Below, piece by piece: positions 2,460-60,000 of a stretch of DNA of 60,000 nucleotides. The stretch spans positions 1-60,000 of the forward strand of contig NW_027437476.1 in NCBI RefSeq assembly GCF_964204645.1. The letters are read 5' to 3'. Each line of letters opens with the position of its first letter. The first letter of the stretch is position 1. The DNA is from Tubulanus polymorphus. Lineage: Eukaryota > Nemertea > Palaeonemertea > Tubulaniformes > Tubulanidae. The notes under the pieces were generated by a model, which was given only the letters and a program-made list of their open reading frames with translations, had not been told where the DNA came from and did no database searches. The position numbers and the translations under genes were made by a program.

Positions 2460-2660
2460 TTAAGCACTGCATTTTTACATTTTAGGTTCTTTTAGTGAAG
2501 GAGAGTTTTCTAAACAGACAAAATTTGCAAGTATGTTTATTTAATGTAAATCAAAATTCTCATACTGATTCAAATGTGTACCTATCCATGATTGAAAATA
2601 TGTGTTAATTAGTTTGATGAATTTGAAAGTACATAGTCTGAAAAACTATCAGATTTGCAG

Positions 2661-3179: not shown

Positions 3180-4353
3180 CGTCTCTAAAAAAATTGTAAG
3201 CTGTTTTGGCACTTAAACGAGGGGCGTCCCTCAAAAAAGTGTGAAATCTCTGTTTTGGCACTAAAACGAGGGGCGTCCCTCAAAAAAGTGGGAAATCACG
3301 GTTTTGGCACTAAAACGAGGACCGTCCCTCAAAAAGTGGGAAATTACGGCTTTGGCACTGAAACGAGGGGCGTCCCTCAAAAAAGTGGGAAATCGCGGTT
3401 TTAACACTAAAACGAGGAGCGTCCCTCCAAAAGTGGGAAATTACGGCTTTGGCACTAAAACGAGGATCGTCCCTCAAAAAAGTGGGAAATCAAGGTTTTG
3501 GCACTAAAGCGAGGGGCGTCCCTCAAAAAAGTGGGAAATCACGGTTTTAACACTAAAACGAGGAGCGTCCCTCAAAAAGTGGGAAATTACGGCTTTGGCA
3601 CTAAAACCAGGAGCGTCCCTCAAAAAGTGGAAAACTACAGCTTTGGCACTAAAACGAGGGGCGTCCCTCAAAAAAGTGCGAAATCACGGTTTTGGCACTA
3701 AAACGAGGGGCGTCCCTCAAAAAAGTGGGAAATCACGGTTTTAACACTAAAACGAGGAGCGTCCCTCAAAAAGTGGGAAATTACGGCTTTGGCACTAAAA
3801 CGAGGAGCGTCCCTCAAAAAGTGGAAAACTACAGCTTTGGCACTAAAACGAGGGGCGTCCCTCAAAAAAGTGCGAAATCACGGTTTTGGCACTAAAACGA
3901 GGAACGTCCCTCAAAAAGTAGGAAATCACGGTTTTGGCACTAAAACGAGGAGCGTCCCTCAAAAAAGTGTGAAATGACTGTTATTGCACTAAAACGAGGG
4001 GCGTCCCTCAAAAAAGTGGGAAATCACGGTTTTGGCACTAAAACGAGGAGCGTCCCTCAAAAAAGTGTGAAATGACTGTTATTGCACTAAAACGAGGGGC
4101 GTCCCTCCAAAAAGTGGGAAATCACGGTTTTGGCACTAAAACGAGGAGCGTCCCTCAAAAAAGTGTGAAATGACTGTTATTGCACTAAAACGAGGGGCGT
4201 CCCTCCAAAAAGTGTGAAATGACTGTTATTGCACTAAAACGAGGGGCGTCCCTCCAAAAAGTGGGAAATCACTGTTATTGCACTAAAACGAGGGCCGTCC
4301 CTCAAAAAAGTGTGAAATCGTTGTTTTGGCACTAAAACTAGGGGCACCCAAGC
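3180..4353. repeat. Left satellite array of 48-49 bp units
   Basis: About 24 tandem copies of a 48-49 bp unit. Each contains GGCACTAAAACGAGG, then the interrupted palindrome GAGGGGCGTCCCTC, then CAAAAAAGTGGGAAATCACG. The outermost copies (3120-3250) are degenerate and the innermost ends in GGGGCACCCAAGCG. Interior subgroups (GTGTGAAATGACTGTTATTG variants at 3960-4280) show local unit amplification. The same array in inverse orientation begins at 59326. The unit is nearly free of stops in some frames, producing spurious ORFs. Confidence 0.95.
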
Positions 4354-7300
4354 GTGAAATCGCAATTTTGGCGGTGAATCGATAAGCTCCTCGAATAAGC
4401 GTTAATCCCAATCTTGATGGTGAAAAGAGAGTGCCTCTTGAAGAAATCCGTTTTGACGATAAGATGAGGAATGTCACTGCAATATGTGCGAAATCGCATA
4501 TGTTCAAACATCAATGATAATTTGAGAGTATTCAACGTGTATCAAAAATGTATTTATTGACCATTAGAAATTTCTATCAATTTGATAAGCACAAATGTTT
4601 GATTAATTTTACATAATTCTTGATATTCAATTCATAATATTTATTGATGAACACATGACTTTTAAACACGCGTTGTATCTAACAACGCTGAATATTTTCA
4701 ACGAAAGTGGTTATCGTAATAAGTCTTTATTTCATAAAATATGTACACACCAGGTGTAAAAAGAACATACACAATTAACAACAAGTTCATATACATGGAA
4801 AAAGTGTCACCGTATGTATAATCTGAATGCATTATGATTATGGCATAGATTAGAAAAATACTCTCACTCTCATTGGCTTTATTAACAGATACAATAGTAT
4901 ATAACAACTGCATAATGCTGGACAGAATAAAAGATATGTACATACGGGATCAAATTAACGTGTACAAAATATAGAAATTGACTCAACTATACATAAAACA
5001 TTGCAACTGTGCAATTTATCGTGGTTACAAAATATGTTTTCAGTTTCCTATACACGGAATTATTGAAATGTTGTGTTAATTTAATTTACTCATCCAAGTT
5101 ATACAAACGGGTCTCACATTATTCAACAAAATAATTATAAGAAGGCCGTCTACTAATGACGGCGGAATGAGAGAAATGATAAATGTTATAAAACATGACG
5201 CAGGCATTAAACATGATGATTTTTTGCGGATGATTATGGTTCGATAGAAAATAGCGGATTCACCGTGTATCCATCAAATTCGAACGCAGCTTATTAAGGG
5301 GAGAATTAAGTACGTAACTAAAATCTAGTAAGTTTCTACTTATTTTACTTGAATGGAGGTAAAACTGGTAGTTCTCTGAAGATTTACTTTATTTAGATGA
5401 AGCTTCCACCAATATCATTTTTTCCTAACAACCACGGCATTAATTTGTTGAAATTGCCGCACAGTCAATTCTATTTATAGTATATTTTCAGAAATTCTAT
5501 GAAATTTCAAATCAGCCCCCATGTCGGAATATGATAACAAATGACTTGAGTTACAATGTACTAGTAAGAAAAATTCAAATTAAGAATTTAAAATACACAA
5601 ATAACTGTTCATCTGAAAAATTCTAAGACAAGATTATCAGTACACCTAATGTAAGATCTTTGGACGGTATCGCGGGATAAGTCCTCTTAAAGTCACTTTA
5701 AGACGCAACGGTTATTGTCGAAATTCGATATTCTGCAAATCGAACTTAGTACAAAGAGGAAAGCATTTTTTCACTCAAATTTCTCTGTCAAATTCGAGAC
5801 AAGCAAATTCATTTGTTTTTCTATAGAAATCGCTTAAACATATTTCAAAGTTAAGTCTTCACTCAATATCTATTGAATCGACATAAAACAGGCAGCACTC
5901 TGAGGGTTTTCTTTATCTATTTGGCAAGTAAGAGTTTTTTTCTGCTAGTCTAAAGAAGCGACCCGATGAAGCTTCTATAAACTAGTAGCGATAGATCGTA
6001 TACATCAAATAAATGTAGACTACCAACAGAGTACTACCTGTTTAACGTCAATTCTTTTGGTTAATGAATTTCGGTCAATTTATTCTGGTTAAAACGGCTT
6101 GCTTCTTCTTAATTTTACCTATGAATATATGTAGACTTTATATCATTCTAATCATTTCAAAATATCGTATAGCACTTAATTGAACGAATAATGATTATCA
6201 TTGAGCGCTAAGTAAACTAAACCCATTTTCCTGGCAATCACGGAACTTATTTGTTGAAATTTTCGCACAGGCAATTCTAATTATAGTATGTTTTCAGTGA
6301 TCCTATGAAATGTCAAATCAGCCCCATTGTCGGAATATGATAACGAATGACTGAGTTACAATGTACTAGTAAGAAATATTCAGATTAGGAATTAAATACA
6401 CAAATAACTGTTCATCTGAAAAATCAAAGACAAGATTATCAGTACACCTAATGTAAGACTCTGGCGCCCAATAAACTTCCTATCAGCGAAACAGAAACCT
6501 GAATGTCACCGTGGACCAGAATTTCTTATCACACCAGTTAGAATACTAGACTATGAAACTTACACCGGCCGAGGCAAGGATTTAATCCCAGGACCCCGGA
6601 GACGTCAAATCTTTGGACAATATCGCGAGATAGGTCCTCTTAAAGTCGGATATTGAGACGCAACGGTTATTGTCGAAATTCGATAATCTGCAAATCGAAC
6701 TTAGTACAAAGTGGAAAACATTTTTTCACTAAAATTCGAGACAAGCAAATTGATTTGTTTTTCTATAGAAATCGCTTAAACCTATTTCAAAATTAAGTCT
6801 TAACTCAATATCTATTGAATTGACATAAAACAGGCAGCACTCTGAGGGTTTTCTTTATCTATTGGGCAAGTAAGAGTTTTTTTCTGCTAGTCTAAAGAAG
6901 CGACCCGATGAAGCTTCTATAAACTAGTAGCGATAGATCGTATATATCAAATAAATGTAGACTACCAACAGAGTACTACCTGTTTAACGTCAATTCTTTT
7001 GGTTAATGAATTTCGGTCAATTTATTCTGGTTAAAACGGCTTGCTTCTTCTTAATTTTACCTATAAATATATGTAGACTTTATATCATTCTAATCATTTC
7101 AAAATATCGTATAGCACTTAATTGAACGAATAATGATTATCATTGAGCGCTAAGTAAACTAAACCCATTTTCCTGGCAATCACGGAACTTATTTGTTGAA
7201 ATTTTCGCACAGGCAATTCTAATTATAGTATGTTTTCAGTGATCCTATGAAATGTCAAATCAGCCCCATTGTCGGAATATGATAACGAATGACTGAGTTA

Positions 7301-9102
7301 CAATGTACTAGTAAGAAATATTCAGATTAGGAATTAAATACACAAATAACTGTTCATCTGAAAAATCAAAGACAAGATTATCAGTACACCTAATGTAAGA
7401 CTCTGGCGCCCAATAAACTTCCTATCAGCGAAACAGAAACCTGAATGTCACCGTGGACCAGAATTTCTTATCACACCAGTTAGAATACTAGACTATGAAA
7501 CTTACACCGGCCGAGGCAAGGATTTAATCCCAGGACCCCGGAGACGTCAAATCTTTGGACAATATCGCGAGATAGGTCCTCTTAAAGTCGGATATTGAGA
7601 CGCAACGGTTATTGTCGAAATTCGATAATCTGCAAATCGAACTTAGTACAAAGTGGAAAACATTTTTTCACTAAAATTCGAGACAAGCAAATTGATTTGT
7701 TTTTCTATAGAAATCGCTTAAACCTATTTCAAAATTAAGTCTTAACTCAATATCTATTGAATTGACATAAAACAGGCAGCACTCTGAGGGTTTTCTTTAT
7801 CTATTGGGCAAGTAAGAGTTTTTTTCTGCTAGTCTAAAGAAGCGACCCGATGAAGCTTCTATAAACTAGTAGCGATAGATCGTATATATCAAATAAATGT
7901 AGACTACCTACAGAGTACTACCTGTTTAACGTCAATTCTTTTGGTTAATGAATTTCGGTCAATTTATTTTGGTTAAAACGGCTTGCTTCTTCTTAATTTT
8001 ACCTATAAATATATGTAGACTTTATATCATTCTAATCATTTCAAAATATCGTATAGCACTTAATTGAACGAATAATGTTTATTATTAAGCGCTAAGTAAA
8101 CTAAACCCATTTTCCTGGCAATCACGGAACTTATTTGTTGAAATTTTCGCACAGACAATTCTAATTATAGTATGTTTTCAGTGATTCTATGAAATGTCAA
8201 ATCAGCCCCATTGTCGGAATATGATAACGAATGACTGAGTTACAATGTACTAGTAAGAAATATTCAGATTAGGAATTAAATACACAAATAACTGTTCATC
8301 TGAAAAATCAAAGACAAGATTATCAGTACACCTAATGTAAGACTCTGGCGCCCAATAAACTTCCTATCAGCGAAACAGAAACCTGAATGTCACCGTGGAC
8401 CAGAATTTCTTATCACACCAGTTAGAATACTAGACTATGAAACTTACACCGGCCGAGGCAAGGATTTAATCCCAGGACCCCGGAGACGTCAAATCTTTGG
8501 ACAATATCGCGAGATAGGTCCTCTTAAAGTCGGATATTAAGATGCAACAGTTAATGTCGAAATTCGATAATCTGCAAATCGAACTTAGTACAAAGTGGAA
8601 AACATTTTTTCACTCAAATTTATCTGTCAAATTCGAGACAAGCAAATTGATTTGTTTTTCTATAGAAATCGCTTTAACATATTTCAAAATTAAGTCTTAA
8701 CTCAATATCTATTGAATTGACAGGCAGCACTTTGAGGGTTTTCTTTATCTATTTGGCAAGTACGATTTTTTTCTGCTAGTCTAAAGAAGCGACCCGATGA
8801 AGCTTCTATAAACTAGTAGCGATAGATCGTATATATCAAATAAATGTAGACTACCTACAGAGTACTACCTGTTTAACGTCAATTCTTTTGGTTAATGAAT
8901 TTCGGTCAATTTATTCTGTTTAAAACGGCTTGCTTCTTCTTAATTTTACCTATAAATTTACCCATTCTAATCATTTCAAAATATCGTATAGCACTTAATT
9001 GAACGAATAATGTTTATTATTAAGCGCCAAGTAATCTAAACCCATTTTCCTGGCAATCACGGAACTTATTTGTTGAATTTTCAGTGATTCTATGAAATGT
9101 CA
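4354..9102 (+). repeat. Left arm of the giant inverted repeat
   Basis: This stretch is matched in reverse complement by 55746-59325. The outer 1.07 kb (4354-5424) is unique sequence. From about 5425 inwards come repeated units: a diverged, shorter outer unit (about 5425-6224), then three near-identical units of about 938-941 bp (6225-7163, 7164-8103, 8104-9043) and a partial fifth ending near 9102. The landmark ACCCATTTTCCTGGCAATCA recurs at the unit boundaries. The arms differ by unit number, small indels and scattered substitutions, so they are old enough to have diverged slightly or are maintained by conversion. No gene is supported here. Confidence 0.93.
6458..6609 (+). repeat. About 150 bp insertion carried in each inner arm unit
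   Basis: The inner units contain about 150 bp from CTCTGGCGCCCAATAAAC to GGAGACGTCAA that is absent from the outermost unit, where GTAAG runs straight into ATCTTTGGAC. Further copies are at about 7400-7550 and 8342-8492 on the left and in inverse on the right arm. It has a weak tRNA-like stretch (GGATTTAATCC, resembling a T-arm). It may be a short SINE-like insertion that preceded amplification of the inner units. Confidence 0.6.
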
Positions 9103-10376: not shown

Positions 10377-13300
10377 TCACTGAAACTTCAACAAAAATAA
10401 TTCAAAAATAGAAATAAAACATACCACTGGATTATCTGTTCCTGCAACTTGTTGAAGCAGGTTAGCAGGAGTTTCTGGCACTGCATCAATCAGATCCGAC
10501 AACTGATATTTCTTAAAACGAGGCAGAAACCAGTATGCATCTGCCATTGAATGGTTCTCCAAAAATTTCTTGTCATGTTGTAGTCTTTTTATGGTGTCAA
10601 TGTATCTTGTCCACCAGTTCACCGTATTATCGTCCAAAAAGTTTTTCCATTTGTTTAGATTAGTAAGATATTTGCTTGATAAAAAGTCATCATAACATTG
10701 AATCAAAATTTCTGGCCGACCGACAGGTATTGAATTCAATAGTCCACCTCTCAATACACGCCATGTGCCCGAACTTGACTTTCTATAAAATAAACTGCAG
10801 CCATCCTCTGTTTTGCGGAAGCAAAAATTTCTTATCTTTGAATGCCCAGATATATTTCTAATATGGGGCTCAAGCCACGCCCTTATATCAAAAAGACCAT
10901 TCAAAAATTGACCACCGATTAATTTCTGCAGCATCGCGTCAAGGGTTAAAGCTTCCTCCTTTCGTAAAGTTCCTGCGATTACCGAAAACATTTGATCAAC
11001 ATCCTCGTGTGTGTGACCGACAGATAGAAATGATAGATTTGTCTGCAAAATAGAATCATGACAGTAGGGAGGTGAAGAAAGGCAAGGCAAAATTAATTCC
11101 ATATCAATCTTTTGAATCTGGAACGAGTGATATTCATTTATGAAATAGTCATGTCTTACCTCATGGCATATTCCAAGTCGTACAAAAAGTTCCAAAAAGG
11201 CTAATAGATAGCGATTTTTGTTTTCTCGACATGTATTATCCGCTTGAAGATAAAGAATTGGCGGTAAATGACCATTCTGAAAATAAACATACATAACGCT
11301 TTATCAACACTTTTTTGAAACCTACTTATAGTAAATTAGCTAAAATAGGGGATATGTTGTTTGCTAAATTATAAATTAGGCATCCAGGGATCCTTTGAAT
11401 ATAGAACTAAAATGCTTGACAACTTCTGACCACATTTAATATTCAAATCCCGCTAGCTATGAAAAAGAGCTATGAAAAAGATATTGCTGACCTTGAATCT
11501 CACCATGATGATATTTCATCAACCATAACTTTGTAACTCATTATCGTTACAAAATATGCATAGGTTCCATAATCAAATCATTAAATTTTTCAATGATGGT
11601 CCTTCGTGAAACTTGCCTCAACAATGTCAAGGTACGTAGGACTAAAACATCAAAAGCGTACCATATACGTACAAGGGTAGGCAAGGAAGACACATCAAGA
11701 TAATTGATTAAAGCCTATTAAGACCTTTCGTGGGAAACTTCAGAACAACAATGGCTGCTCGTTGGCCATCATGATACTGATCCGGCCAGTTTTTGGGCAG
11801 CAGATGTGTCTAGCCACATGTATAAACCAAATATCAGCAAAATCAATTGAAGCGTCATAGAACTTTTTCCATAACAACTGGATTCTTTCAAAGGATGAAC
11901 AGATTGAGAAAAAGCTTAAGACTCAATACTTACCACTGACTCCTTCCACAAAGTCTTCAATAACACATTCATTACCATGTTAGAATCATGCGGATACTGT
12001 AAGACATCTAAGTAGCAATACCTGCGCTGCATAGCATGACATATGACACCAGTCACGTGTGTTTTTAACAACTCATTAGAGCTAAATTCCTGCAAATAGT
12101 GTTAACCATTAAAAGAGTATGTATTTTCGTATGGAAAGATTATTGCTTTAATCAACATCGGCTTCAAACTAACCTTAGGAACTGAACCAGTTAAATGAGG
12201 AATGTACGTTTTCTTCTGATCCATGCCATCGATGATTAATGATGTATAGCGTTGTGGGTTAGCTTTAGCTCGATTCCTCCTTACCGTATATGCCTGTCTA
12301 TCCATTCTAAATAAAATCCAATTGCATACTTTAATAATCAGCTGTGTTAGGAGATATGAATATCGATGTCAATCGGTTATATCACTGAATCCCAAAAAAA
12401 TCTGTATGGAGCATCAATTACTAAAATTCAAGGGAAGTGTTTATGTATATCTTATGACAGTGCCTTGCAAAAGCCTACTTTCCTTCTTAACACACAGCCA
12501 CCATAAGAATGGTTTTGGTCTTGAACTGTTGGCCAATTGTGGAAAAATATCTAGTTGCCAATAATCTTAGACATAACAGAAATGCATGCCCGTATTTAGG
12601 GGGTTCAGGGTTCGCTTATTCATGAAGTTCCACTCTGATGTCAGCCTGACAAAAACTGGAGCATGACTCATTTTTGTAAGTGCTCGCTCAAATAGGAGTC
12701 GAACTTAATTCGAGGCAGTTTTTTGGAGACAGAAGTATTGAAAGTTGCTCCTTGTTGTATCTATTGTTTTAATGATTTTCTGGGGTAGCTTTACATGCCT
12801 TGGGTGGCATATTTATCACATATGAGTTAAACTTTCCTTAAAATTCAACCCCCCCCCCCCCCCAAAGACAGGGCTGGCAATGGGCCTGAAATGCATCATT
12901 TTATAAGTACATACGTTATCTGGTCATAATGAGTTTGCCTCAAGCTTTTAATACGCTCTTTCATCGCTGGATCAGTTGTTGCTTGCATCTTACGATTTAG
13001 AATGACGCAAGTTGTGCATTTTGTGAAGGCATTTCCCTTGAAAATATATAGAATTCATCAACAATTACAAATTTCCAAATGAGTGAAATGAGTTGCACTT
13101 CAATAAAAAAATTGTTTGGATATAAGTAACTTAAGTGATTTAAATAGAAAGTAAATATCTTCCTCGCATACCTTCCGGATTTTAACATTTGGGAAAGATT
13201 CTTTCCATAACTGATAGAACGAAGTCCGCTTTAGGTATGGCAGGTTATGGTGATCTCTTTGTTTGCGGTAAAATTTCCAGACGTCAACCTTCCGAGTAGC

Positions 13301-16300
13301 GGATGGAAGCCATGCTTCAGCTTTGTGGGGTGCATGCTCAGCATTTTCGGTCAGGTATTTTTCTAACCAAGCCGATGCTTCGATGTTGACAGCTGTTTTA
13401 GAACGTGCACCCACCCTGACACGGCTTTTACCGGAGAGAACATTGCTCAGTGTCACAGCATGAATACCGTGAGCCATCAACCAAGCCTTCTGACACACAC
13501 TCACACCTTTCACTGTATAGCTTTTTGTACTGCCCAATGAATCCTTTATAAACTGGTGACGTTCTCGCCACGATCTTGACCAAACGCTTCGGCGAATTTG
13601 CAAAATATCTTCTCTCAAAAGGAAGCTGTTGCAATGGTTCTTTTTACAGCACGGCATTAAAGCACGTGCTATTTGCCTTGCTGCTATTTTTTTCAGCAGA
13701 ACGTTTGGTTTGGGATTTGATGAACCTACAAATGATTGCAATACATGTATCAGATTTAGTATTCATTGGGGTAACAAACTTAAACATCATTAAACTCATT
13801 GCATCTCCTCCTGCAATCAAGTGTATGATTAGTGGAACGAAGTGTGTGCACTAAGCAATAGCTATATCCCCTTCTACTACTTACTTTAGCCTATCCCTTG
13901 ACTGAAATGCTCCAGGGCACCAGATTGTATTTTTACAAGGAGCAGACTTGTAGGACCGTGTACCCCTCCCAACTTTCGCTATTAAACTACCAGTCCTCTC
14001 ATTCTGGTAAGTATAATTTCATTTTTTGAACCCATAAGTAGGTGCCTGTTTGAATAGTATTATAGGGGTCAGGCCATAAATGTGATCCCCTTCCACTATG
14101 ATCCCTTTCAATTTATGATAGTAACTTCTTTCTGAATCTTTCTTTATCATGATACCTCCTCCAATACCATACCTTTTTTAATACATTTTCTAGGCTCCAC
14201 TGGTTTGATAACGCAATCCATAGCAACAGGGGATTCAAGCACTTCATTTCCATCAACTGTAAGGCAAAAGATTTTCACAAAATACATTTTTGATATCATT
14301 TAATAACTAGGGGTCCTGGGAAAACATGGCCACTTGGGAGTTGGCTTGAAATGCTAAAAAATTAATTAAAATTATTCTTCAAAATTTCCCCTCAAAAACT
14401 TCAAATACATGTATAAACCAAATATGAAGACAATCCATAGAGATGCGAACAGCAGACGAAATAGCCTGCCTAGGACTGGGCTAAGTGGGCTAAAAACTGG
14501 TTTTAACGTGGCGTTAAAACAAAAGACTGGTTTTCATACTTTTTATGAGTGTTATATTTTTTTCTTAATGTGGCCCGAATCAGCCACCATATGATGGGCT
14601 CTGAGGGATACAAATATATATGACAGATCAAGATAAATCATTGAGGGGTCTTCAAAATTTCCTCGATTAACCCTCGATTACAAGATAATTTGCTTTAATT
14701 CGACGAGAAAATGAAAAATGGCCCTTTCCACAAATAAAAACTATCCATAAAATCAATGGTAGTTTTTTATTTTGAAAATCCCTACGAAATAGTAGAGTAT
14801 TTACAGAAGTATAGCTATTTTAGAAGTAGAATTTCCGTTTCCCTTACAAAATTCAGTGTAGGGATAGGGACCTGTGTTCTGGCAAAATTTAAGTTTTAGG
14901 TTATGAAGCCTTAAATAAATGCATCTTCTTATTCAGCTTGTGGAGAGGTTATCAGGGCGGGGATTAAACTCAAAGGACTAATGTTTTTTAAACTTAAGTC
15001 ATTTTTAATGTGCGGAACTAAATAGTAAATATTGGTCCGGCCAATAAGGCCCCAAATGCCCCGGTTCCGCTGCCCATGGCTGGGTAGGACATATGTTCAA
15101 AGTGGGCTAAAAATTGATCTATAAAGGAATTCCCTGAAAATTTAATTCTATTAAGCCTATTTACCTTTGATGACACTAGTTATAGCGTTCAGGGTTGTAC
15201 TCAAATCAAACTCGTTCGATTCTGAAAAAACACATGTGTTAAATGAATGATTTTGCTTTAGATGTCCATATGTTTCGTTGATTTTACAAATGCTTATTTC
15301 TTTTCGGGTAAACCTACGTTCATTTAGATCTATATCTTCATCATACAAGGAACGATTGTGTGAATTTTCTTCAACTAGCAGTGATCCCATATCTTCTAAA
15401 AATGATTTTATAACACAACATTTGCAATTTTCCTCATTACTGCAATGAACTGCAACTCATATTTAAATTTCAATTAGAACTCATTAAAAAATGAAAATTG
15501 TTTTTTATCAACATTGATCATTTGGGCCAAAAAACTAGATACCTTGTTTTTTATTACTATTTCTATTATCTTTAAGAAAAAATAAGTTTGTTATAAGACA
15601 ATCACAAGCTTGCTCTCAGAAAACATGAAATACTTATTGAATATAAAACATTAAGGTAAAGGCTGACTTATGTCGACAAGCAACGCGACACCTATCGACT
15701 CGACTGAGAGCACCAGCAATCGCAGCCCAGCTTATGTCGACTGCGCTCCGATTCGCAGCAACTGATGGCTCAGATGGTCACGCGATAAACATTTAAAGAA
15801 TAAATTTATATTATTTTGAATTATAGGGAAATATGTTTCTAGTTGAAAAGCTATTTCTTTAAGATCTTATCTTTCTGATTTTGTTTTGAATACAATGTGC
15901 TAGCGACATCATATAAAGATGGCCGCCCACACGGTAATTCTACCAATTTCATTTCTAGATCGCCGGTCCAGTCATCTGCCGTGCTGAAGGTTTGGTTTGC
16001 CTTTGAAATTACTTAAAGGGCAAATGCTGTCAAAATTGATCTTTCAGTGATTTCTTAACCAGAAGAAACTTAAGTATAATGACCCGAGACCTGACTTATC
16101 GAAAAAGGTTGCTCGAATTAGCCGTAAATTAGTCATTTATCCTTCACTCCGTGCGTATATTTCACATACAATACAACGCTAACTAGCAGTCAAAATTTGC
16201 ACTGTACATATTCGGTCTCTGATTGGCTGGAATTCATGCGCTCAGTTCCATCGCGTCGTAAATGAGCTTATGTCGGTTGCGATCGAAAGCAACTGCCCGC

Positions 16301-34853: not shown

Positions 34854-34857
34854 ATAA

Positions 34858-36330: not shown

Positions 36331-36458
36331 TATATATCTGAGTTGAAAAATGAGTGTGCGTTTTATTGTTTCATAATTTTTTTTGGAATATGCACATGTC
36401 CTTAATCTTCTAAAATGAATTTACTTTTTATTTCTATAGGCGTTGATGAATATAAAAA

Positions 36459-36500
36459 ACTCATAAACTGAAAAGAAAGATCTTTTCGGTTTATGAGTTT
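36459..36500. other. Strong hairpin, about 19 bp stem
   Basis: AACTCATAAACTGAAAAGA, a short AAGA loop, then TCTTTTCGGTTTATGAGTT: one mismatch in the stem. Function unknown; possibly a remnant of a small inverted-repeat element. Confidence 0.8.
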
Positions 36501-38020: not shown

Positions 38021-38060
38021 GGATAGACCTACGAGCAATTGTTAGATAATTGCTCGTAGG
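38021..38060. other. Hairpin with 13 bp stem
   Basis: CCTACGAGCAATT, loop GTTAGAT, then AATTGCTCGTAGG, perfect. The flanking words GATAGACCT are direct repeats. Function unknown. Confidence 0.75.
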
Positions 38061-48600: not shown

Positions 48601-51600
48601 TGGAACTGTATTTTTTGGAATGAAACGAAACACTACAGAGTTTTTGCACAACGTTATTTAGACCGGTCTAAATTTGATCCGGTCCAATTTAGACCCGACC
48701 AAGCGTTCACACCGGCAAAAATTCCGTTCCAAATTGGCCCGGTCCATTTTAGACCGATCTAATTTTGACCACAAAGAGTGAACCAGGTCCGGTCCAAATT
48801 TTGGTACGGATTAAATCTCTAGCCGCGTTCACACGACAACTAGTTAGACCGGTCTAAATGAGTCAGTACCTGGGGCCAGTTGCATAGTCGTGGCTTAGAC
48901 TTAAGACCAGTCTAAGACCAACTTAGTTCTATAGCCAATCTAACAAATTAAGATCAGTCTTAAGATTTAAGACCACTTTTAGACTTAAGTCACGACTGTG
49001 CAACTGGGCCCTGGTCCGGTCCAAATTTAGACCGGACCAAATTTTGGTTAGCGTTCACACGGCGTTTTGACACGCGTTGATAAAATCGCTTGTCTCTGGG
49101 CCCACAATATGTTGCCATCTGCTAGATAATTAACTGGGCCTGGATGAAGTCTTACTTCCAGATTCCAAGTAGAGCAAGACATTCTTCATTTGACGAATTC
49201 GATTCTCTCTCAGTTTTAGACATTTTTGATTCAGACGCACTCATTTGTCCTGGACACAAATTTGGTCCGCCCAAGTCCGATGTTTTTGGTCGGGCCAAGT
49301 TTGACCCTCAAGCAGACACACGCCAAAAAGGGTACCCGTCTAAACAGTTTTCCCGGGCCAATTTGGCCGGTGTAAAAATGCCAAAAATGCTCGTGTGATC
49401 GCGGCCATAAACTGGTATCACACTCAAACCAATATTTTCTTTTAGCGCAAGCAACTCAACGATCGGTACCGTATCGTCATTAAAGCAGCACAAATGCCCA
49501 CGTGTGCATGGCTGCTATGGGAAAAAATGATCGAAGGATGGTCGAAGGGGCATATCAAAGGCCAAAAATATGAAACAATCGACAGGAATGGCGAAAAAAG
49601 GAAAACATTGGTACCTTTTGGGTCAAGGAAGGTCAAATCTTTGGTATCATTACCTGTACCGGATATGATGGCTATCATGAAGGATATTACCAACGGAAAA
49701 ATCGACCAAAAAGACATTATTCCATTATGCAGTAGTAGAGCCAGGTTAGTTTGCTATTTATCTGTTATATATATAATGTCTATAAATCATATTTTAATTT
49801 ATTTATTCATTCCATTTACAGGGTTACTAAGACTACAGCTGCTAAGACTAGGGAAGTAAGTATAACAATTTAGTAGCTTCTCATTTAAAAATTAACCAAA
49901 CATGTCTGATATGGATTCTCATACTGATATATTTCATTTGTTTACAGCCTGCCGTAGAACGAGAGAAGAATGAACAAGCTGAAAATGAGGTACAGACACT
50001 TACAGCTCATATAGCTCTTTTTTCGTATATGTCACATTTCTTACAAATGATGAATATGTTTCATGAGTTATTATCAAGAGGGAGATTTTGTTTCAGCAAA
50101 ACAGAGCAAATTTAGATCGACGAGTCACCGGAGAGGTAATTTATGATTGTAAAAATATTATCACTTCATAAGAACTTAAAGCATGGACGATTAGTACAGA
50201 AGGAGTGGATTCAGTTGGGTTCTAGGAGCCCTCCCCCTCCCCGATTTTTGCCCAAAAGAAGATTATTGTATATTAGTGGTTTGTCTTAGGGCCTTAGGTT
50301 TATCTGAGGCCCACTTAACTTAAGTTATGTTTGAGGATGATAAACCTTTGACTGTGAACAGTACGTAATCTCTCAGTTAACTCATTTTGATTGATAGTCA
50401 TCAGTGTTCAATCAACATTCTTTTATTGGAAGTCATGATCAAAGGAATTTTCTCATTTCTATTCGGTTTCAGTTGGAAGTTGACCAGTCATCATTTGCAG
50501 AAGATATGGATATGGAAGACGACCCTAGTGTCTTCATAGTAAGTATATGACTATTGCACGGGCACGTTGAGCATTTTTGAGGTTTATTTCTTTGTCAGTC
50601 ATCGGCTGCCTAGGCGCATTTTCATTAAGATTTTCTGAGAAAAAATTTAGTGCATTATTTCTCAGCACGTATAAGATGGGCTGGCTGGCTGGTGAATCAA
50701 GGCACACGCGTCCTCTATGTATTGAGATGCCTTTTTGCTCTGGTTGCGTGGGTGATAAAAACTTAATTTATAAGAGTAAAATCAGAATTCATTAATATAC
50801 TTTTTTCTTTTCAGGAAAAAGAACACGCATCAATCAGCCAAGAGGTATGGAATATGTCATTTACGTAGATATTGTTGTTACAATTTTTCATTGCTTGTCT
50901 AAAAGCTTACACCCATTCTATGCGACCAACTAAGTTTTTTTTCAAAATCAACATCGATTGTTACAATTACTGATATTGTAGGTCAATGAATTGTTGACCT
51001 CTATATGTTATCTACTTCTACTAGCTTCAGAGTACCTTTATTGATGGCAATAAACGAAGACGTCCGCGCCACGATTTAGAGGTTAGTTATCATTCAAAAA
51101 AGTTTAAAATGGGAAGCGTCCTAGGAACATTGAAAACATTTTTTTAAAAATCCTATTTTCGAAAAATATCCAACGTCTGAATTAAACAAAAATAGAATTT
51201 TTGAATAAAATACCCAGGGCCTGGTGTTATAGACTGGTATTAACTTTTAACCGAGAGGTTAACTCAATTGAAAATGAATTGAGTTAGCTCTGGGTAAAAG
51301 ATAAATACAATTCTATAAAGCCGGCCCCAGGATTTTTTAATCAAACAATGATATTTTCCAGGACGCTTCCGTAAGGGTTAAACGTATTTACATTATATTG
51401 TATAATCACTTGTGTTTTTTGCACTTGTAACTCATTAATGTTGATAAACCAATGATTACACGGATACGTGTTAGAACAGTTCTTTTTATATATCCAATCA
51501 ACCATTAGTCATGTTATATGTAACTCAAGTGCATATTTCTTTAGATATCCCATGTTCTACCTACGAAGAGTTTACGCTTACAGGCAAGTAAATCTTAGTA

Positions 51601-54600
51601 TTTTTGTTTATAAAAGAAAAAACTGTATTTGCCGTCGCTTTCCCTCTCAGTGAATTATACAGTTCATAACGACCCTACCACTACTTGAGAACGAAATCGG
51701 TTTCAGCTATGTCTCGCTTTCTACGTTCAATGGTAACTGCTGTGTATTTTATAGGTGAATCAAATCAATGCGACAAGCCAGACCGAACCTAGTAATGAGG
51801 TATATATCGATAATGTAACCCTCAAGTTGTTTCAAAGGACATCGGGTGCCACAACAACAGTCAGTTTTGGTAGTATGTACTTGACATGTGTCAAAATGAT
51901 CAGCATGCTAAACCAGAGAAATAAAATATCGATTCTCAATCCATCCTGTACTGCATGGCCCGATTTTATAGACTGGTATTAACTTTAACCCGGGGGTTAA
52001 CTCAATTGAAATTGAATTGAGTTAGCCCCCGAGTGAAAGTTAATACCTGTCTATGAAACTGGCCCCAGGAGTTGAAGAATTGCATAAAATTCTTTTCACA
52101 AGGTGAATCAGAGAAAAAGTCACTCCAGCCGTAAATCAAGTTTAACCCATATATACCTATAGGGACATTGTTAAACATAAGAAAACAATTAGGTTTTTCT
52201 TCATTTAACAAAATTGGAACTGCGCATCTGTGCTGGTCATTTTAACACCTTTATCAGGTGAACTAATCGAGTTATGGCACCCCGGCTTCCTTTCAAACGT
52301 CAAGTCGAAATTTATACTAATGGCAACTTGCATCGAATTTTACAGGTTGTTACACAACAGCTCGTTACAGAGCTGAGGGAAAAGCTTGCCACCACTGAGA
52401 GAAGGCTTAAAGATATTGAGGTAAGGTTTGCGTACTTGATAACAATGAAAATCATCTAAAACATGTATATACAGTAAAACCTGCGATCATACGGAGACGA
52501 TTTGGCCGTGCTAAAATTTGACTCGGGCCTGCTCCGACGTTTTTGGTCGGGTTAAATTTGTCCCGGGTCTAACTAGCGCGCGCCTATTTGTCACCCCTGC
52601 GAACGGTAATTGTAGGCCTAATTTGGCACCCGTGTGATATAATTGTACTTAATATAACTTTTTTTTAAATTTTGTTTTAAGATTGAAAAACAGTTCTCCA
52701 CTAACATGATACAAGGCTTAGAAGAAGAATTGTTGGAAGTAAAGGTCAGTGTCACCAAATCTTACTACAAATTTGCCAAACTACCGGGTACAAAAAGTAT
52801 CCCATTTCATGGTCCTGTACTAACCATGTCCTGATCTGGAATCTATGTATATTTTTGATAGAACTGTAAGGACTACCGCACTCCTTTTTCTGAAAATCAT
52901 ATCTTCATGGTTTTGTCGGCTCATCACCAAAGTGTGCGCTTTCAATATTGGCCGACGACTTTTTTGTACGATATCTTAAACATCGCGCGGCTGTGCGCCG
53001 CAGTAATCAGCAGTGGTTCGTGGACTAACGTCGACATAGGCCTAACTAACGGCTTCATTGTTTTTTTTTTTTATTTATAGAAGTCTAATAAGGAAAAAAA
53101 CGAAAAGATTCATCTCTATGAACAGGTATGCCAATTTGATTTTTTTTTTTCTTGGAAAAAAGTATTTAGTATGCTCTAACATGGGATGCTTCAACGGTAA
53201 AAAGCGATAATTATAACAGCTGTGCCCTTCAGTTACACTTCTATGGTTCCTGGGACCTTGGAGTAATCAGACTGGTGAAATCAGAGAGTACGTTCACACA
53301 CGTGATAGTGAATTGACTACAGACCACTGGCCCCCGTAATCTATTAATGACTGCAGTTCATCATTGTCACCCGCACCTACACTCTAAACATCAAGTAGCT
53401 GTAATGAGTGTGATGGATTACAGAAATATTTATGATTCAAAAGTGTAAATTTGAAGGATTTTTAAATCTTATTACTTCAAGGTTTATCTAATCAAAAGTA
53501 CGCTTAGTTAAAAACGGTGCTGATGAAGACACGATAGGGGCGATATGCTAAATTCACGTCAGTGTGAACTCCTAGCTACACACTGATATTCATTTCATCT
53601 ACCCAAAGTTATCCCTGTAGTAATTATCTTATCCAAAGTACGCTTAGTAAGTTAAACTCAGATGAACCAGCCCCAGATTTTATGTATTGAATTTGAAAAT
53701 GCAGTGGAAAATAATTTACCGTGATGGCTTTCTGTATTTAATGTTCTAATATTCATACAGTGTGCTTACATGTATTTCTAGGAATTGAAAAGGATTCGGC
53801 ATCAAAATCCACAAGATGTAAATTGTAAAGGTAGATCATTTTACTTTATTGAAGGCCCACTAAACTGTCACTTAACCGATTTGGATCCTTCTTTTCGTCA
53901 AACATACATGTATTACTGTGTTATATTCATTTCTGTAATCAAAATGTGTTTAGATCATCCTCTTTTGAGAAATATAGCTTTAGAATTTATCTCTTCAAAA
54001 TCTATAAAATCCCTGCATAACATAAAGGGGGAACTAGCTTAGTTCAAATTCAGATTCAGATTACACATAAACAAAATGTAGGCTAATTCAAAGTACAAAT
54101 ATTGACAACTTAAATACCCGTAATTATCATCATTATTGTTACTGTTACTCATTTCAAGTGCTGAAGTCACTTTGAGCGGTCTTGGTCAAGTGCCAGTATC
54201 CACTGCAATTAAGTGATCACTTGACACATGGCTAGTGGGGTAAAATATTATTGAGCAGCTGCCCTTGAAAATAGGTGGATCTTAAGAGTATTATGAGTTT
54301 TCAACGTGTGTCAGGTTTAACCGTGTTGGGCCTACAGTACTGTTGTGATCGCCAACCATTATCGCTGTGAATATTATAAATAGGCTAACAGTAGCTAGAG
54401 GGAAGGCCTAAGTGGCATATGTGGCTGTAGAAATGCGTTACTGATATATATATATATATTTTTATTGTGCAGTTTGGATATATTATGATATAATTTCGTA
54501 ACATAATTTGATGATGCATTACTAAGTTGATTACTACTGATACATGGAATAGAGGGGCTGGGGGTAACAATACCAATTTGGGGCGAATTTGATCTAGATT

Positions 54601-55727
54601 CTGTTTAGGATACCTGCGCTTTATAAATGACATTATAATTATTGTTATTATTATTACTATTATCATTATTATAAGTTCATAGATATATACTGCAGTATTT
54701 GACAGATAATATGCCTGTTATACTGCTCCTCAGCCCAAGTTACTAACACAAACAATAGACAGACGATCATCATGATGATCTATCTAAAAAAATTAGTTGT
54801 GACTCCATTTTACGTGTTCAAGCTCAAATTCATGTGAAATATAAATTTTTCGTGAAAGATTAAACATACCCCAGCATAGCTCTTATTGGTAAAAATGAAA
54901 TGATCCTTTATAATTTACACAATTTACCGAAAAACTATGGGGCTAACATTAAAATGCATATGGTTTGAAATTGATATTTTCCAGCGAAAACGGCAGACAT
55001 ATCGCTGATTTCCCCAAATTTTAGTGATGAACTGCCATTAGTTGACATTCCCATGCAGACGAAGCAAACGGTAGGTTTTATAATACAGCCCCGGAAAAAT
55101 CCCAAGTTCTGTTATTTTGTGTTAAAGAATATTTTTGGACTACATTTTTCCATCACTAAATAGAATGTTCCCACCATCATGCAGGGACTTAGTCTTCATT
55201 TATGAAATTCACGCATCTTAATTGAAATACTGAATAACATAATAACTTGCTAGTTCTCGGAAACTATAAATAGCTGCAATACGCATGCGTTCGACATGCA
55301 CATATAAAAATATGCTGCTACTGCACTCTGGGTTTTGAAGGGTTTATGGGAATTAGCTATGTATATATCATTAAGATTTAGATTTATTGGATTATTTATT
55401 AGATTTATTATTCTCTTTTAGTTCGATGAAGGCGACGTCCTCCTTGTCGACTGGACAAGATTTGGAATCTATTTGGCAGCAGTTGATTCCACAAAAAATC
55501 TCATTTCCTGCCAAAAGCATATATGCAAAAGACCGTCGCATAACTTCAGTGACGCCTTAGAAACAAGAGTCCTCAACAAAGAGGACGTGCAAAGTATGAA
55601 GTCGGTCGACCTGAAGATGGTCATTTGCAAGGTGCCGAATGCCAGGCGAGAGGACGACGCAATAGTTGGTGTAGATTACATTTGGGTACACGCCATGGTT
55701 AAAAAATACACCTCCCAACATTCTTAA
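39624..55727 (+). CDS. ParB-like domain protein, 23 exons, 745 aa
   Basis: Exons: 39624-39770, 45373-45544, 46489-46536, 46620-46652, 46808-46843, 46961-47002, 47152-47193, 47436-47654, 47732-48000, 49446-49744, 49821-49854, 49948-49989, 50097-50135, 50473-50538, 50815-50844, 51031-51081, 51755-51799, 52346-52420, 52682-52744, 53081-53125, 53782-53830, 54985-55070, 55422-55727. All are GT-AG and in phase. Residues 174-336 look like a ParB/sulfiredoxin-type fold: a nucleotide-binding-type motif GGNHTLAAL (231-239), then MPDDLARFLAADHNL (267-281). A conserved-looking block follows (337-436), then many tiny exons giving an acidic stretch, a basic NLS-like KRRRPRH (514-520) and charged helices suited to a coiled coil (about 539-600). 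The last exon (645-745) is a compact unrecognised domain. Intron 1 (5.6 kb) hosts an antisense SET gene and MITEs. The stop lies about 20 bp from the right inverted arm. Function unknown; DNA binding is inferred. Confidence 0.85.
39828..40260. mobile_element. Partial MITE, GGTAAAAATTCCC family, inverse to 34858-35601
   Basis: Starts ATTCGGTTAGCGGTAAAAAT and continues as a diverged reverse complement of 35000-35590 (for example the reverse complement of ATCGCACAGCTCAAAT). No matching far end was found. It lies 57 bp after exon 1 of the ParB-like gene. Confidence 0.6.
40650..40700 (+). ncRNA. Hammerhead-like core motif, incomplete
   Basis: CTGATGA at 40656-40662 is followed by a hairpin (TGGCTGTT, loop, AACAGCC) and then GAAACG. 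This matches two of the three conserved boxes and helix II of a hammerhead ribozyme, as known from Penelope-like retroelements. I could not find the cleavage triplet with a matching helix III, so activity is doubtful. Related copies are at 48305-48431. Confidence 0.35.
40866..42298. mobile_element. Non-autonomous transposon with GGGTAACTGACAC ends
   Basis: The left end CAGGGTAACTGACACTTTTT and the right end in reverse complement, AAAGGGTAACTGACACTTTT, are flanked by TA (40864-40865 and 42299-42300). About 1.43 kb, no long ORF. A half copy lies in inverse at 23471-23990. The GGGTAACT start equals the first eight bases of the pogo element's terminal repeat. It is in intron 1 of the ParB-like gene. 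Confidence 0.8.
42932..43801 (-). CDS. SET-domain protein (KMT5A/SET8-like), 257 aa, 2 exons
   Basis: Exon 1 is 43801-43583 (73 codons, ATG at 43801) and exon 2 is 43486-42932. The intron is GT-AG, phase 0. SET-domain proteins transfer methyl groups from S-adenosylmethionine to lysine. Seen here: EKGHGAISSRFIKAGEFICE (131-150), the cofactor motif NHSKLNANC (208-216) and ELLHNYGDR (239-247), whose Y244 fits the catalytic tyrosine. Spacing and the YGDR ending are closest to KMT5A (histone H4K20 monomethylase). No pre-SET cysteine cluster is seen. Residues 20-95 (FLKEFCDEQ, then KGFQRF and KQRGYMV) recall the winged helix that follows D5-like or plasmid-type primase-helicases, a weak inference. 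The gene lies antisense within intron 1 of the ParB-like gene. The host histone is a possible substrate, not shown. Confidence 0.88.
43802..45372. other. Intronic stretch upstream of the SET gene
   Basis: Between the SET gene start (minus strand) and exon 2 of the ParB-like gene. It should hold the SET promoter, which I cannot identify. It contains a MITE (about 44003-44665) and a single-ended GGTGGATCCAGAGGG motif at 44714. No further coding sequence is supported. Confidence 0.6.
44003..44665. mobile_element. MITE with GGTAAAAATCCC repeated ends
   Basis: Left CCCCTGGTAAATATCC and CGGTAAAAATCCCTC; right GGGGATTTTTACCGGGGG and a G-run, in inverse. The interior shares CGTAGCTTAGTAAAAGTCAC with 36077-36240. 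The exact ends are blurred by C and G homopolymers. Confidence 0.6.
45945..46153. mobile_element. 209 bp MITE with TAGCCGCGATCAC ends
   Basis: Perfect 13 bp inverted ends, TAGCCGCGATCAC and GTGATCGCGGCTA, enclosing GC-rich non-coding DNA. It is in the intron between exons 2 and 3 of the ParB-like gene and shares its ends with the 48821-49407 element. Confidence 0.82.
48305..48431. repeat. Head-to-head pair of a short repeat (long hairpin)
   Basis: Two inverted copies of about 55 bp around GGCTGTTAGTCAAAAGCCGA, separated by about 18 bp. Each resembles the 40650-40700 motif, but the boxes are altered (CTGATTA and CTGACTA instead of CTGATGA), so neither is a standard ribozyme core. It lies in the intron after exon 9 of the ParB-like gene. 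Confidence 0.75.
48821..49407. mobile_element. MITE with TAGCCGCG ends, containing a nested hairpin MITE
   Basis: Left TAGCCGCGTTCACACGA; right TCGTGTGATCGCGGCCA. Internally rich in GACCGGTCTAAAT and GGTCCGGTCCAAATT repeats, which also fill 48657-48820 as an adjacent partial copy. A second element (48872-49011) is inserted within it. Non-coding, in an intron of the ParB-like gene. Confidence 0.75.
48872..49011. mobile_element. 140 bp hairpin MITE
   Basis: GGGGCCAGTTGCATAGTCGT pairs with the right end ACGACTGTGCAACTGGGCCC. The inner parts (CTTAAGACCAGTCTAAGACC) also fold back. Nested in the 48821-49407 element. Confidence 0.85.
51215..51331. mobile_element. 117 bp fold-back MITE
   Basis: Ends AGGGCCTGGTGTTATAGACT and the inverse CTATAAAGCCGGCCCCAGG, with an almost complete fold-back around GTTAACTCAATTGAAAATGA. 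Its sister copy is at 51957-52069. Intronic. Confidence 0.85.
51957..52069. mobile_element. 113 bp fold-back MITE, sister of 51215-51331
   Basis: Starts GGCCCGATTTTATAGACTGG and ends AACTGGCCCCAGG, with the same GTTAACTCAATTGAAATTGA centre. Intronic. Confidence 0.85.
54440..54462. repeat. TA microsatellite
   Basis: Short (TA)n run ending in T-rich sequence. A second low-complexity stretch of ATT/ATTATT repeats is at 54628-54672. Intronic. Confidence 0.85.
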
Positions 55728-55745
55728 TAATTATTTTTCTGTTTA

Positions 55746-58700
55746 GATTACTTAGCGCTTAATGATAATCATTTATTCGTTCTATTATTTGATATATACG
55801 ATCTATCGCTACTAGTTTATAGAAGCTTCATCGGGTCGCTTCTTTAGACTAGCAGAAAAAACTCGTACTTGCCAAATAGATAAAGAAAACCCTCAAAGTG
55901 CTGCCTGTCAATTCAATAGATATTGAGTTAAGACTTAATTTTGAAATATGTTTAAGCGATTTCTATAGAAAAACAAATCAATTTGCTTGTCTCGAATTTG
56001 ACAGATAAATTTGAGTGAAAAAATGTTTTCCACTTTGTACTAAGTTCGATTTGCAGATTATCGAATTTCGACATTAACCGTTGCATCTTAATATCCGACT
56101 TTAAGAGGACCTATCTCGCGATATTGTCCAAAGATTTGACGTCTCCGGGGTCCTGGGATTAAATCCTTGCCTCGGCCGGTGTAAGTTTCATAGTCTAGTA
56201 TTCTAACTGGTGTGATAAGAAATTCTGGTCCACGGTGACATTCAGGTTTCTGTTTCGCTGATAGGAAGTTTATTGGGCGCCAGAGTCTTACATTAGGTGT
56301 ACTGATAATCTTGTCTTTGATTTTTTAGATGAACAGTTATTTGTGTATTTAATTCCTAATCTGAACATTTCTTACTAGTACATTGAAACTCAGTCATTCG
56401 TTATCATATTCCGACAATGGGGCTGATTTGACATTTCATAGGATCACTGAAAACATACTATAATTAGAATTGCCTGTGCGAAAATTTCAACAAATAAGTT
56501 CCGTGATTGCCAGGAAAATGGGTTTAGTTTACTTAGCGCTTAATAATAAACATTATTCTTTCAATTAAGTGCTATACGATATTTTGAAATGATTAGAATG
56601 ATATAAAGTCTACATATATTTATAGGGAAAATTAAGAAGAAGCAAGCCGTTTTAACCAGAATAAATTGACCGAAATTGATTAACCAAAAGAATTGATTTT
56701 AAACACGTAGTACTCTGTAGGTAGTCTACATTTATTTGATATATACGATCTATCGCTACTAGTTTATAGAAGCTTCATCGGGTCGCTTCTTTAGACTAGC
56801 AGAAAAAACTCGTACTTGCCAAATAGATAAAGAAAACCCTCAAAGTGCTGCCTGTCAATTCAATAGATATTGAGTTAAGACTTAATTTTGAAATATGTTT
56901 AAGCGATTTCTATAGAAAAACAAATCAATTTGCTTGTCTCGAATTTGACAGATAAATTTGAGTGAAAAAATGTTTTCCACTTTGTACTAAGTTCGATTTG
57001 CAGATTATCGAATTTCGACATTAACTGTTGCATCTTAATATCCGACTTTAAGAGGACCTATCTCGCGATATTGTCCAAAGATTTGACGTCTCCGGGGTCC
57101 TGGGATTAAATCCTTGCCTCGGCCGGTGTAAGTTTCATAGTCTAGTATTCTAACTGGTGAGATAAGAAATTCTGGTCCACAGTGACATTCAGGTTTCTGT
57201 TTCGCTGATAGGAAGTTTATTGGGCGCCAGAGTCTTACATTAGGTGTACTGATAATCTTGTCTTTGATTTTTTAGATGAACAGTTATTTGTGTATTTAAT
57301 TCCTAATCTGAACATTTCTTACTAGTACATTGTAACTCAGTCATTCGTTATCATATTCCGACAATGGGGCTGATTTGACATTTCATAGAATCACTGAAAA
57401 CATACCATAATTAGAATTGTCTGTGCGAAAATTTCAACAAATAAGTTCCGTGATTGCCAGGAAAATAGGTTTAGATTAGTTAGCGCTTAATAATAAACAT
57501 TATTCGTTCAATTAAGTGCTATACGATATTTTGAAATGATTAGAATGATATAAAGTCTACATATATTTATAGGTAAAATTAAGAAGAAGCAAGCCGTTTT
57601 AACCAGAATAAATTGACCGAAATTCATTAACCAAAAGAATTGACGTTAAACAGGTAGTACTCTGTAGGTAGTCTACATTTATTTGATATATACGATCTAT
57701 CGCTACTAGTTTATAGAAGCTTCATCGGGTCGCTTCTTTAGACTAGCAGAAAAATCTCGTACTTGCCAAATAGATAAAGAAAACCCTCAGAGTGCTGCCT
57801 GTTTTATGTCAATTCAATAGATATTGAGTTAAGACTTTTTGAAATATGTTTAAGCGATTTATAGAAAAACAAATGAATTTGCTTGTCTCGAATTTGACAG
57901 AGAAATTAGAGTGAAAAAATGTTTTCCTCTTTGTACTAAGTTCGATTTGCAGAATATCGAATTTCGACAATAACCGTTGCGTCTTAAAGTGACTTTAAGA
58001 GGACTTATCTCGCGATACTGCCCAAAGATCTTACATTAGGTGTACTGATAATCTTGTCTTAGATTTTTTCAGATGAACAGTTATTTGTGTATTTTAAATT
58101 CTTAATTTGAATTTTTCTTACTAGTACATTGTAACTCAAGTCATTTGTTATCATATTCCGACATGGGCTGATTTGAAATTTCATAGAATTTCTGAAAATA
58201 TACTATAAATAGAATTGACTGTGCGGCAATTTCAACAAATTAATGCCGTGGTTGTTAGGAAAAAATGATATTGGTGGAAGCTTCATCTAAATAAAGTAAA
58301 TCTTCAGAGAACTACCAGTTTTACCTCCATTCAAGTAAAATAAGTAGAAACTTACTAGATTTTAGTTACGTACTTAATTCTCCCCTTAATAAGCTGCGTT
58401 CGAATTTGATGGATACACGGTGAATCCGCTATTTTCTATCGAACCATAATCATCCGCAAAAAATCATCATGTTTAATGCCTGCATCATGTTTTATAACAT
58501 TTATCATTTCTCTCATTCCGCCGTCATTAGTAGACGGCCTTCTTATAATTATTTTGTTGAATAATGTGAGACCCGTTTGTATAACTTGGATGAGTAAATT
58601 AAATTAACACAACATTTCAATAATTCCGTGTATAGGAAACTGAAAACATATTTTGTAACCACGATAAATTGCACAGTTGCAATGTTTTATGTATAGTTGA

Positions 58701-59325
58701 GTCAATTTCTATATTTTGTACACGTTAATTTGATCCCGTATGTACATGTCTTTTATTCTGTCCAGCATTATGCAGTTGTTATATACTATTGTATCTGTTA
58801 ATAAAGCCAATGAGAGTGAGAGTATTTTTCTAATCTATGCCATAATCATAATGCATTCAGATTATATATACGGTGACACTTTTCCATGTATATGAACTTG
58901 TTGTTAATTTTGTATGATCTTTTTACACCTGGTGTGTACATATTTTATGAAATAAAGACTTATTACGATAACCACTTTCGTTGTAAATATTCAGCGTTGT
59001 TAGATACAACGCGTGTTTAAAAGTCATGTGTTCATCAATAAATATTATGAATATCAAGAATTATGTAAAATTAATCGAACATTTGCGCTTATCAAATTGA
59101 TAGAAATTTCTAATGGTCAATAAATACATTTTTGATACACGTTGAATACTCTCAAATTATCATTGATGTTTGAACATATGCGATTTCGCACATATTGCAG
59201 TGACATTCCTCATCTTATCGTCAAAACGGATTTCTTCAAGAGGCACTCTTTTCACCATCAAGATTGGGATTAACGCTTATTCGAGGAGCTTATCGATTCA
59301 CCGCCAAAATTACGATTTCACGCTT
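55746..59325 (-). repeat. Right arm of the giant inverted repeat
   Basis: Reverse complement of the left arm. It starts about 20 bp after the stop codon of the ParB-like gene with a partial, internally deleted 940-bp-type unit (55746-56534). A nearly full unit follows (56535-57481), then the diverged shorter outer unit (57482-58250) and the unique outer segment (58251-59325). It has one full unit fewer than the left arm. Small differences such as a one-base shorter T run in CACTTTTCCATG (58876-58887) separate the arms. Non-coding. Confidence 0.93.
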
Positions 59326-60000
59326 GGGTGCCCCTAGTTTTAGTGCCAAAACAACGATTTCACACTTTTTTGAGGGACGGCCCTCGTTTTAGTGCAATAA
59401 CAGTGATTTCCCACTTTTTGGAGGGACGCCCCTTGTTTTAGTGCAATAACAGTCATTTCACACTTTTTTGGGGGACGCTCCTTGTTTTAGTGCCAAAACC
59501 GTGATTTCCCACTTTTTGGAGGGACGCCCCTCGTTTTAGGGCAATAACAGTCATTTCACACTTTTTTGAGGGACGCTCCTCGTTTTAGTGCCAAAACCGT
59601 GATTTCCCACTTTTTTGAGGGACGCCCCTCGTTTTAGTGCCAAAGCTGTAGTTTCCCACTTTTTGAGGGACGCTCCTCGTTTTAGTGCCAAAGCCGTAAT
59701 TTCCCACTTTTTGAGGGACGTTCCTCGTTTTAGTGTTAAAACCGTGATTTCCCACTTTTTTGAGGGACGCTCCTCGTTTTAGTGCCAAAACCGTAATTTC
59801 CCACTTTTTGAGGGACGCTCCTCGTTTTAGTGTTAAAACCGCGATTTCCCACTTTTTTGAGGGACGCCCCTCGTTTTAGTGCCAAAACCGTGATTTCCCA
59901 CTTTTTTGAGGGACGATCCTCGTTTTAGTGCCAAAGCCGTAATTTCCCACTTTTTGAGGAACGATCCTCGTTTTAGTGTTAAAACCGCGATTTCCCACTT
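59326..60000. repeat. Right satellite array, runs off the window
   Basis: About 14 copies of the same 48-49 bp unit as at 3180-4353, in inverse orientation (GAGGGACGCCCCTCGTTTTA). The array continues past the window end, so the outer right boundary of the unit is not visible. Confidence 0.95.

Follow-up and report, generated by a model that had tools for sequence, protein, structure and literature searches.

FB elements possess inverted ends that consist largely of satellite-like tandem repeats, and Tetris is reportedly a foldback-type element whose long inverted ends are likewise built from tandem repeats (PMC4079207). Polinton/Maverick elements create a 6-bp duplication, and the enzyme of Teratorn is of the DDE type. 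Teratorn itself is described as a fusion of piggyBac with a herpesvirus that forms a giant animal DNA transposon of 180 kb (PMC10175614, PMC5601938), and Kolobok and piggyBac are reported to produce duplications specific to TTAA (PMC9587614). KDZ transposons are presented as giant DNA transposons with accessory genes (PMC12477816), and Starships as giant cargo-carrying fungal elements classified by a tyrosine recombinase (PMC12289983, PMC12134995). Sola elements are described as having a DDD transposase, 4-bp duplications, and terminal inverted repeats (TIRs) of 11-1124 bp, with some elements exceeding 15 kb (PMC10741241). A giant Sola1 element of 21.5 kb, Sola1-1_Ec32 from the brown alga Ectocarpus, is reported to carry a gene for a ParB-like plus DNA-methyltransferase protein opposite the transposase strand (PMC12477816). 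The subject of this report lies in the nemertean Tubulanus polymorphus, in a 60,000-base stretch of DNA (the window) that constitutes an entire contig, C59, of a genome assembly of 267.8 Mb in 77 contigs. Judged from sequence comparison, bases 3019-60000 and a probable further 848 bp on scaffold C11 very likely represent a copy of a giant DNA transposon of the autonomous cut-and-paste type, with a DUF7869 protein as its putative transposase.

The element shares features with several of these systems. Like Starships and KDZ transposons, it is a giant eukaryotic element with cargo or accessory genes. However, its putative enzyme is of the DDE type rather than a tyrosine recombinase, and KDZ elements differ from it in transposase domain and duplication length. 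Its satellite-like inverted ends recall foldback elements, but here they enclose a large coding interior with a putative transposase. The duplications read AAAG, AAAT, and GTTA, which departs from the TTAA rule of Kolobok and piggyBac (Teratorn included), and their length of 4 bp departs from that of Polinton/Maverick. Like Teratorn, the element is a giant animal DNA transposon with a putative DDE-type enzyme, but no viral genes were found in the 23 window peptides scanned. The closest known kind appears to be Sola, notably the giant algal Sola1 element. As far as the published descriptions allow a comparison, the likeness comprises a DDD transposase, a 4-bp duplication, large size, and a second gene on the opposite strand. 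The differences are the length of 49-58 kb, the composite satellite ends, the presence of a SET domain rather than a DNA methyltransferase, and a second gene (ORF-B) that is not confirmed as ParB. Relative to the TIR range of Sola, the inverted ends measure about 5-6 kb, tandem arrays included, in the family represented in the window (family 1), and at least 338 bp in a second family (family 2).

A first-pass annotation of this DNA had proposed, as an inference, a mobile element of at least 57 kb that starts at base 3180. It had called for a search for further copies, and had named a sharp outer boundary, a target-site duplication, and an empty allele as proof of mobility, and single-copy occurrence with conserved synteny or misassembly as grounds for rejection. 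The start is now corrected to base 3019, where a sharp terminus begins AACCTCGTCCG, since the 110 bp in front of the satellite are present at nine element ends across the genome (two each on C8, C4, and C12, one each on C59, C7, and C11). At all nine ends the common sequence begins AACCTCGTCCG at the same base, and the preceding flank is different at each. Two further partial matches to the terminal 110 bp are weaker (84%). In the genome search, nine sequences match the unique arm over nearly its full length (two each on C59, C8, C4, and C12, one on C7). Within the window, the proposed order of inverted modules is borne out on both sides by TRF, self-comparison, and genome search, with the satellite followed by the arm of approximately 1.07 kb and then by the approximately 942-bp units. 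In the self-comparison, the units of the right side span 55785-58029. The inverted arms (3674-7896 versus 60000-55785) are 95.4% identical over 4252 columns.

Complete copies are located at C8:2858417-2907359 (48,943 bp) and C4:5822826-5874964 (52,139 bp), and the stretches read for both contain no N. With the outer left arm excepted, the main aligned blocks of the C4 copy agree with C59 at 99.87 to 100% identity, and the longer interior blocks of the C8 copy at 98.1 to 99.9%. Broken copies are found on C7, where the match to the window ends at 17437 in the stretch read, and on C12, where the stretches read cover window position 40863 through to the right end and, separately, a left end that breaks off at 5701. 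C10 carries a diverged remnant (85%). Single-copy occurrence is therefore contradicted, as several near-identical copies sit in unrelated flanks. The outer left arm of the C4 copy is only about 93% identical to the left arm of C59, but C4:5823286-5825000 matches the right arm of C59 (58286-60000) at 100% over 1,715 bp. The inverted arms thus look homogenised, and such long inverted arms may recombine with one another.

The copy in the window lacks about 850 bp at its right extremity, as the contig stops inside the satellite at an offset of 850 relative to the end of the element. On scaffold C11, one terminus and its satellite form a stub of 848 bp in total (C11:7099503-7100350) that is followed by a 100-N gap (stub and gap, C11:7099503-7100450). 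Compared with the outer right end of the C4 copy, this stub has 846 identities and 2 mismatches, whereas the seven other ends compared give 21 to 36 mismatches. Because the stub matches the missing right end and the contig edge lies at offset 850, C59 is probably the sequence missing from the gap on C11. Given this placement, the full length of the copy would be 56,982 + 848 = 57,830 bp. The left flank of C59 showed no overlap with C11 past the gap, and the support for the join comes from the stub side.

Duplications were counted with AACCTCG taken as the terminus, for which the chance per pair is 0.5% for a 4/4 match and 6.2% for at least 3/4. Two of the four family-1 pairs are exact, namely AAAT/AAAT at the C4 copy and GTTA/GTTA at two C12 ends, though the latter face each other across 4.87 kb. 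The other two pairs, ACAT/ACGT at C59/C11 (3/4) and AACT/TATT at C8 (2/4), are inexact. Family 1 shows the duplications AAAT and GTTA but none at some copies, and family 2 adds AAAG. The two C12 ends (C12:8749255-8754129) stand in reversed order and may have arisen through aberrant transposition or duplication.

The mismatch at C8 can be explained, since its left and right flanks belong to different dispersed repeats. The left repeat is uninterrupted through the insertion point in both of the other copies read, as is the right repeat in both copies read, and each C8 end is therefore a sharp insertion. Originally, these flanks probably did not adjoin each other, which is consistent with later recombination between giant insertions. 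When the joined flanks of C4, C8, and C59/C11 were sought elsewhere, no match among the 40 of 198 candidates scored crossed a junction by more than about 4 bases. The left flank of C59 gave repeats alone among the 40 of 1145 candidates scored. Empty sites were recovered for family 2 (three of three paralogous units) and for each C8 end, but not as joined flanks for these family-1 insertions, and all are paralogous sites in one genome assembly rather than alleles of other individuals. Around the C4 copy (C4:5822576-5875214), same-strand frames that look like coiled coils occur on both sides, which suggests a host-gene intron as its insertion site.

The same design recurs in a diverged family-2 element of 29,605 bp at C9:4232628-4262232. 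This element has inverted termini that are 95.6% identical over 339 columns, subterminal tandem repeats, and the duplication AAAG. It is inserted in a tandem array, of which all three paralogous units read present the uninterrupted site. As in the window, the DUF7869 and ORF-B genes of this element are oriented outwards. An apparent frame break separates the first exon pieces of its ORF-B. Two more family-2 ends lie in unrelated flanks. At the level of sequence, the mobility first inferred is supported by copies that are nearly identical, share their sharp ends, and lie in unrelated flanks, together with 4-bp duplications and empty sites.

The DUF7869 protein reported previously is well supported. 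Its six exons join in frame with 0 stops, and the product matches PF25273 with an E value of 4.9e-64 (215.9 bits versus a curated Pfam cut-off of 26). The model equals the NCBI-listed protein P0097 (259 aa) over its first 255 residues. Three invariant aspartates (D417, D500, and D542) were placed on an RNase H fold via alignment and the predicted model of a homologue. The protein is predicted on this basis to be an RNase H-fold, DDD-type transposase, and its role in the element is inferred because of this fold and these aspartates. A genome search gave 66 DUF7869 matches that group into 37 loci. Two of these (C10:8119898-8120467 and C36:87617-88186) contain the domain in one open frame without introns, and we regard them as a further family. 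Protein searches that returned 82 and 38 proteins, partly overlapping, include named matches in molluscs, amphioxus, acorn worms, echinoderms, cnidarians, sponges, and an amoeba, and the animal matches are mostly listed as uncharacterized or hypothetical. A literature search for "DUF7869", which is silent on Repbase and closed journals, found nothing, and one for the catalytic motif string gave 36 papers, of which the 10 listed have unrelated titles. Broader literature listings likewise named no DUF7869 element.

DUF7869 and ORF-B form a two-gene core that is common to both families. The nine-exon model of ORF-B is open up to its terminal stop and lacks its 5ˊ end. Four exons are collinear between the window and family 2, with identities of 32, 34, 21, and 37%, although the 21% match is weak (E 0.005, the level of chance matches in the same list). 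Eight ORF-B loci lie outside family 1. Four of them pair with DUF7869 at no more than 60 kb, two divergently on C9, one convergently on C36, and one on the same strand on C8, and the other four have no DUF7869 match within 200 kb. Both observations argue against a fixed layout. A GGNH motif spotted by eye is reminiscent of ParB, the identity first assigned to this protein. However, no match was obtained in Pfam, NCBIfam, or PDB sequences, nor by hhalign to one ParB sequence, and the ParB name is therefore not to be used as fact. No homologue of the ORF-B model was found among 7998 scored candidates, and the single-sequence fold of its exon-1 peptide was poor (pLDDT 53.3) and was not used.

The SET domain reported earlier is confirmed by a match to PF00856 in Pfam (E 4.8e-15), with KMT5A/SET8 as the best PDB sequences. 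Its exon has four genome matches, all in family 1 (C4, C8, C59, and C12; 7 candidates scored), and the C12 match has 21 gap positions. The description of three intact multi-exon genes holds for DUF7869, its uncertain 3ˊ end aside, and, but for its 5ˊ end, for ORF-B. The SET gene was seen as one open exon, and a multi-exon structure is therefore not shown for it.

Several observations weigh against an autonomous transposon driven by DUF7869. Some of the genomic DUF7869 matches contain stops, and the transposase role is a prediction. The window is a short unplaced contig that ends in satellite, with a scaffold gap at its probable missing end. In addition, the size of the element and its capture of genes are virus-like.

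The best-surviving alternative concerns classification and leaves the mechanism unchanged. The element might be a giant member of Sola, with DUF7869 being a Sola (Sola1-like) transposase under another name, and we give this close to an even chance. The DDD triad and the 4-bp duplication seen here fit the Sola descriptions, and the opposite-strand second gene fits the brown algal element. However, this likeness is drawn from published descriptions. No alga appears among the named proteins in the 38-protein profile search made with 51 DUF7869 proteins, whose sensitivity is limited. Moreover, the ORF-B pieces scanned contain no methyltransferase domain, and the ParB likeness failed every profile test.

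It is improbable that the element is mobile but non-autonomous, with an unrelated transposase acting in trans and DUF7869 as a passenger. The stops noted above would fit such a passenger, but both families carry DUF7869 while having termini of their own, a DDE fold is predicted for a homologue, and no mismatch separates the exons of C59 from those of C4. Less probable still is an endogenized virus or a virus-transposon fusion of the Polinton or Teratorn type, as might be inferred from the size and gene content. Among the 23 window peptides compared with Pfam, DUF7869, SET, HTH_psq, and DDE_1 alone exceeded the cut-off, and none was a protein-primed DNA polymerase B, a capsid protein, or a tyrosine recombinase captain, with other open frames outside the scan. 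The 4-bp duplication also argues against a virus, and none of 45 pattern matches in viral contigs was confirmed as a DUF7869 relative. Least probable of all is a segmental duplication or assembly artefact around inverted repeats, a case that the unplaced contig and the gap might favour but that is contradicted by the N-free C4 and C8 stretches, the stop at the same base at nine ends, the duplications, the empty sites, and the fit of the C11 stub to the missing end.

The components of the element in the window are listed in Table 1.

Table 1. Coordinates of the element, its genes, and its flank in the window.
Feature	Position	Strand	Basis
Left flank, outside the element	1..3018	.	
Left terminus, 110 bp, starts AACCTCGTCCG	3019..3128	+	Nine genome ends including that of C59, 96-100% identity; differing flanks
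Left subterminal satellite, 49-bp unit, ~25 copies	3129..4345	+	TRF
Left unique arm, ~1.07 kb	4346..5419	+	Nine near full-length genome matches, itself included, 98-100%
Left tandem units of ~942 bp (5420-5663 is a partial unit)	5420..9082	+	Self-comparison
DUF7869 gene, putative DDD transposase; 5ˊ start and 3ˊ end provisional	10380..13725	-	Splice model, PF25273
DUF7869 exons, six, joined	13725-13172, 13036-12915, 12306-12174, 12089-11934, 11276-11160, 11042-10380	-	
Nested pogo-like DNA transposon, TA target duplication	24016..29500	-	Missing in C4 and C8 copies; HTH_psq, DDE_1
SET-domain exon, KMT5A/SET8-like, 194 aa open	42935..43516	-	PF00856, PDB sequences
ORF-B, nine joined exons; first exon, possibly others, missing	47436..55727	+	Splice model, open to terminal stop
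ORF-B exons	47436-47654, 47732-48000, 49446-49744, 49822-49855, 49948-49989, 52346-52420, 52682-52744, 53081-53125, 55422-55727	+	
Right tandem units of ~947 bp (58022-58263 is a partial unit)	55785..58263	-	Self-comparison
Right unique arm	58264..59329	-	98% to left arm
Right subterminal satellite, truncated at the contig edge; its probable continuation is the 848-bp C11 stub	59330 (about)..60000	-	TRF

The nested pogo element noted at first pass is upheld by its TA duplication, its Pfam domains, and an empty site read in the C4 copy. An internal pair of inverted repeats of ~500 bp (23468-23970 and 41817-42301, 89% identical) is present in the C4 and C8 copies and looks like an older nested element. 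In the left flank, window positions 1883-2463 correspond to a ~580-bp dispersed repeat with many genome copies at 79-97%.

If DUF7869 is the transposase, it would bind repeated sites in the subterminal satellites of each end, bring the two ends together, cut them, and then join them to target DNA cut with a 4-bp stagger. ORF-B, which is oriented divergently from DUF7869 both in the window and in the family-2 element mapped in full, would act as an accessory factor in DNA binding or synapsis. As for the SET protein, it would be a chromatin modifier acquired by capture, and it may shield the element from silencing or tune its insertion. More broadly, and tentatively enough that we rate it below an even prospect, DUF7869 elements might constitute an unrecognised eukaryotic DDD superfamily in marine invertebrates, defined by 4-bp duplications and the DUF7869 and ORF-B core, whose large satellite-ended members captured a histone methyltransferase for control of their own chromatin.

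Pfam lists DUF7869 as a domain of unknown function, and the transposase assignment gives this common animal family a likely function. If true, it would explain the taxonomic scatter of DUF7869 proteins and let annotators drop them from host gene counts. The element, with its defined ends, target duplications, near-identical copies, and accessory SET enzyme, offers a system for testing the movement and silencing of an animal transposon of approximately 50 kb.

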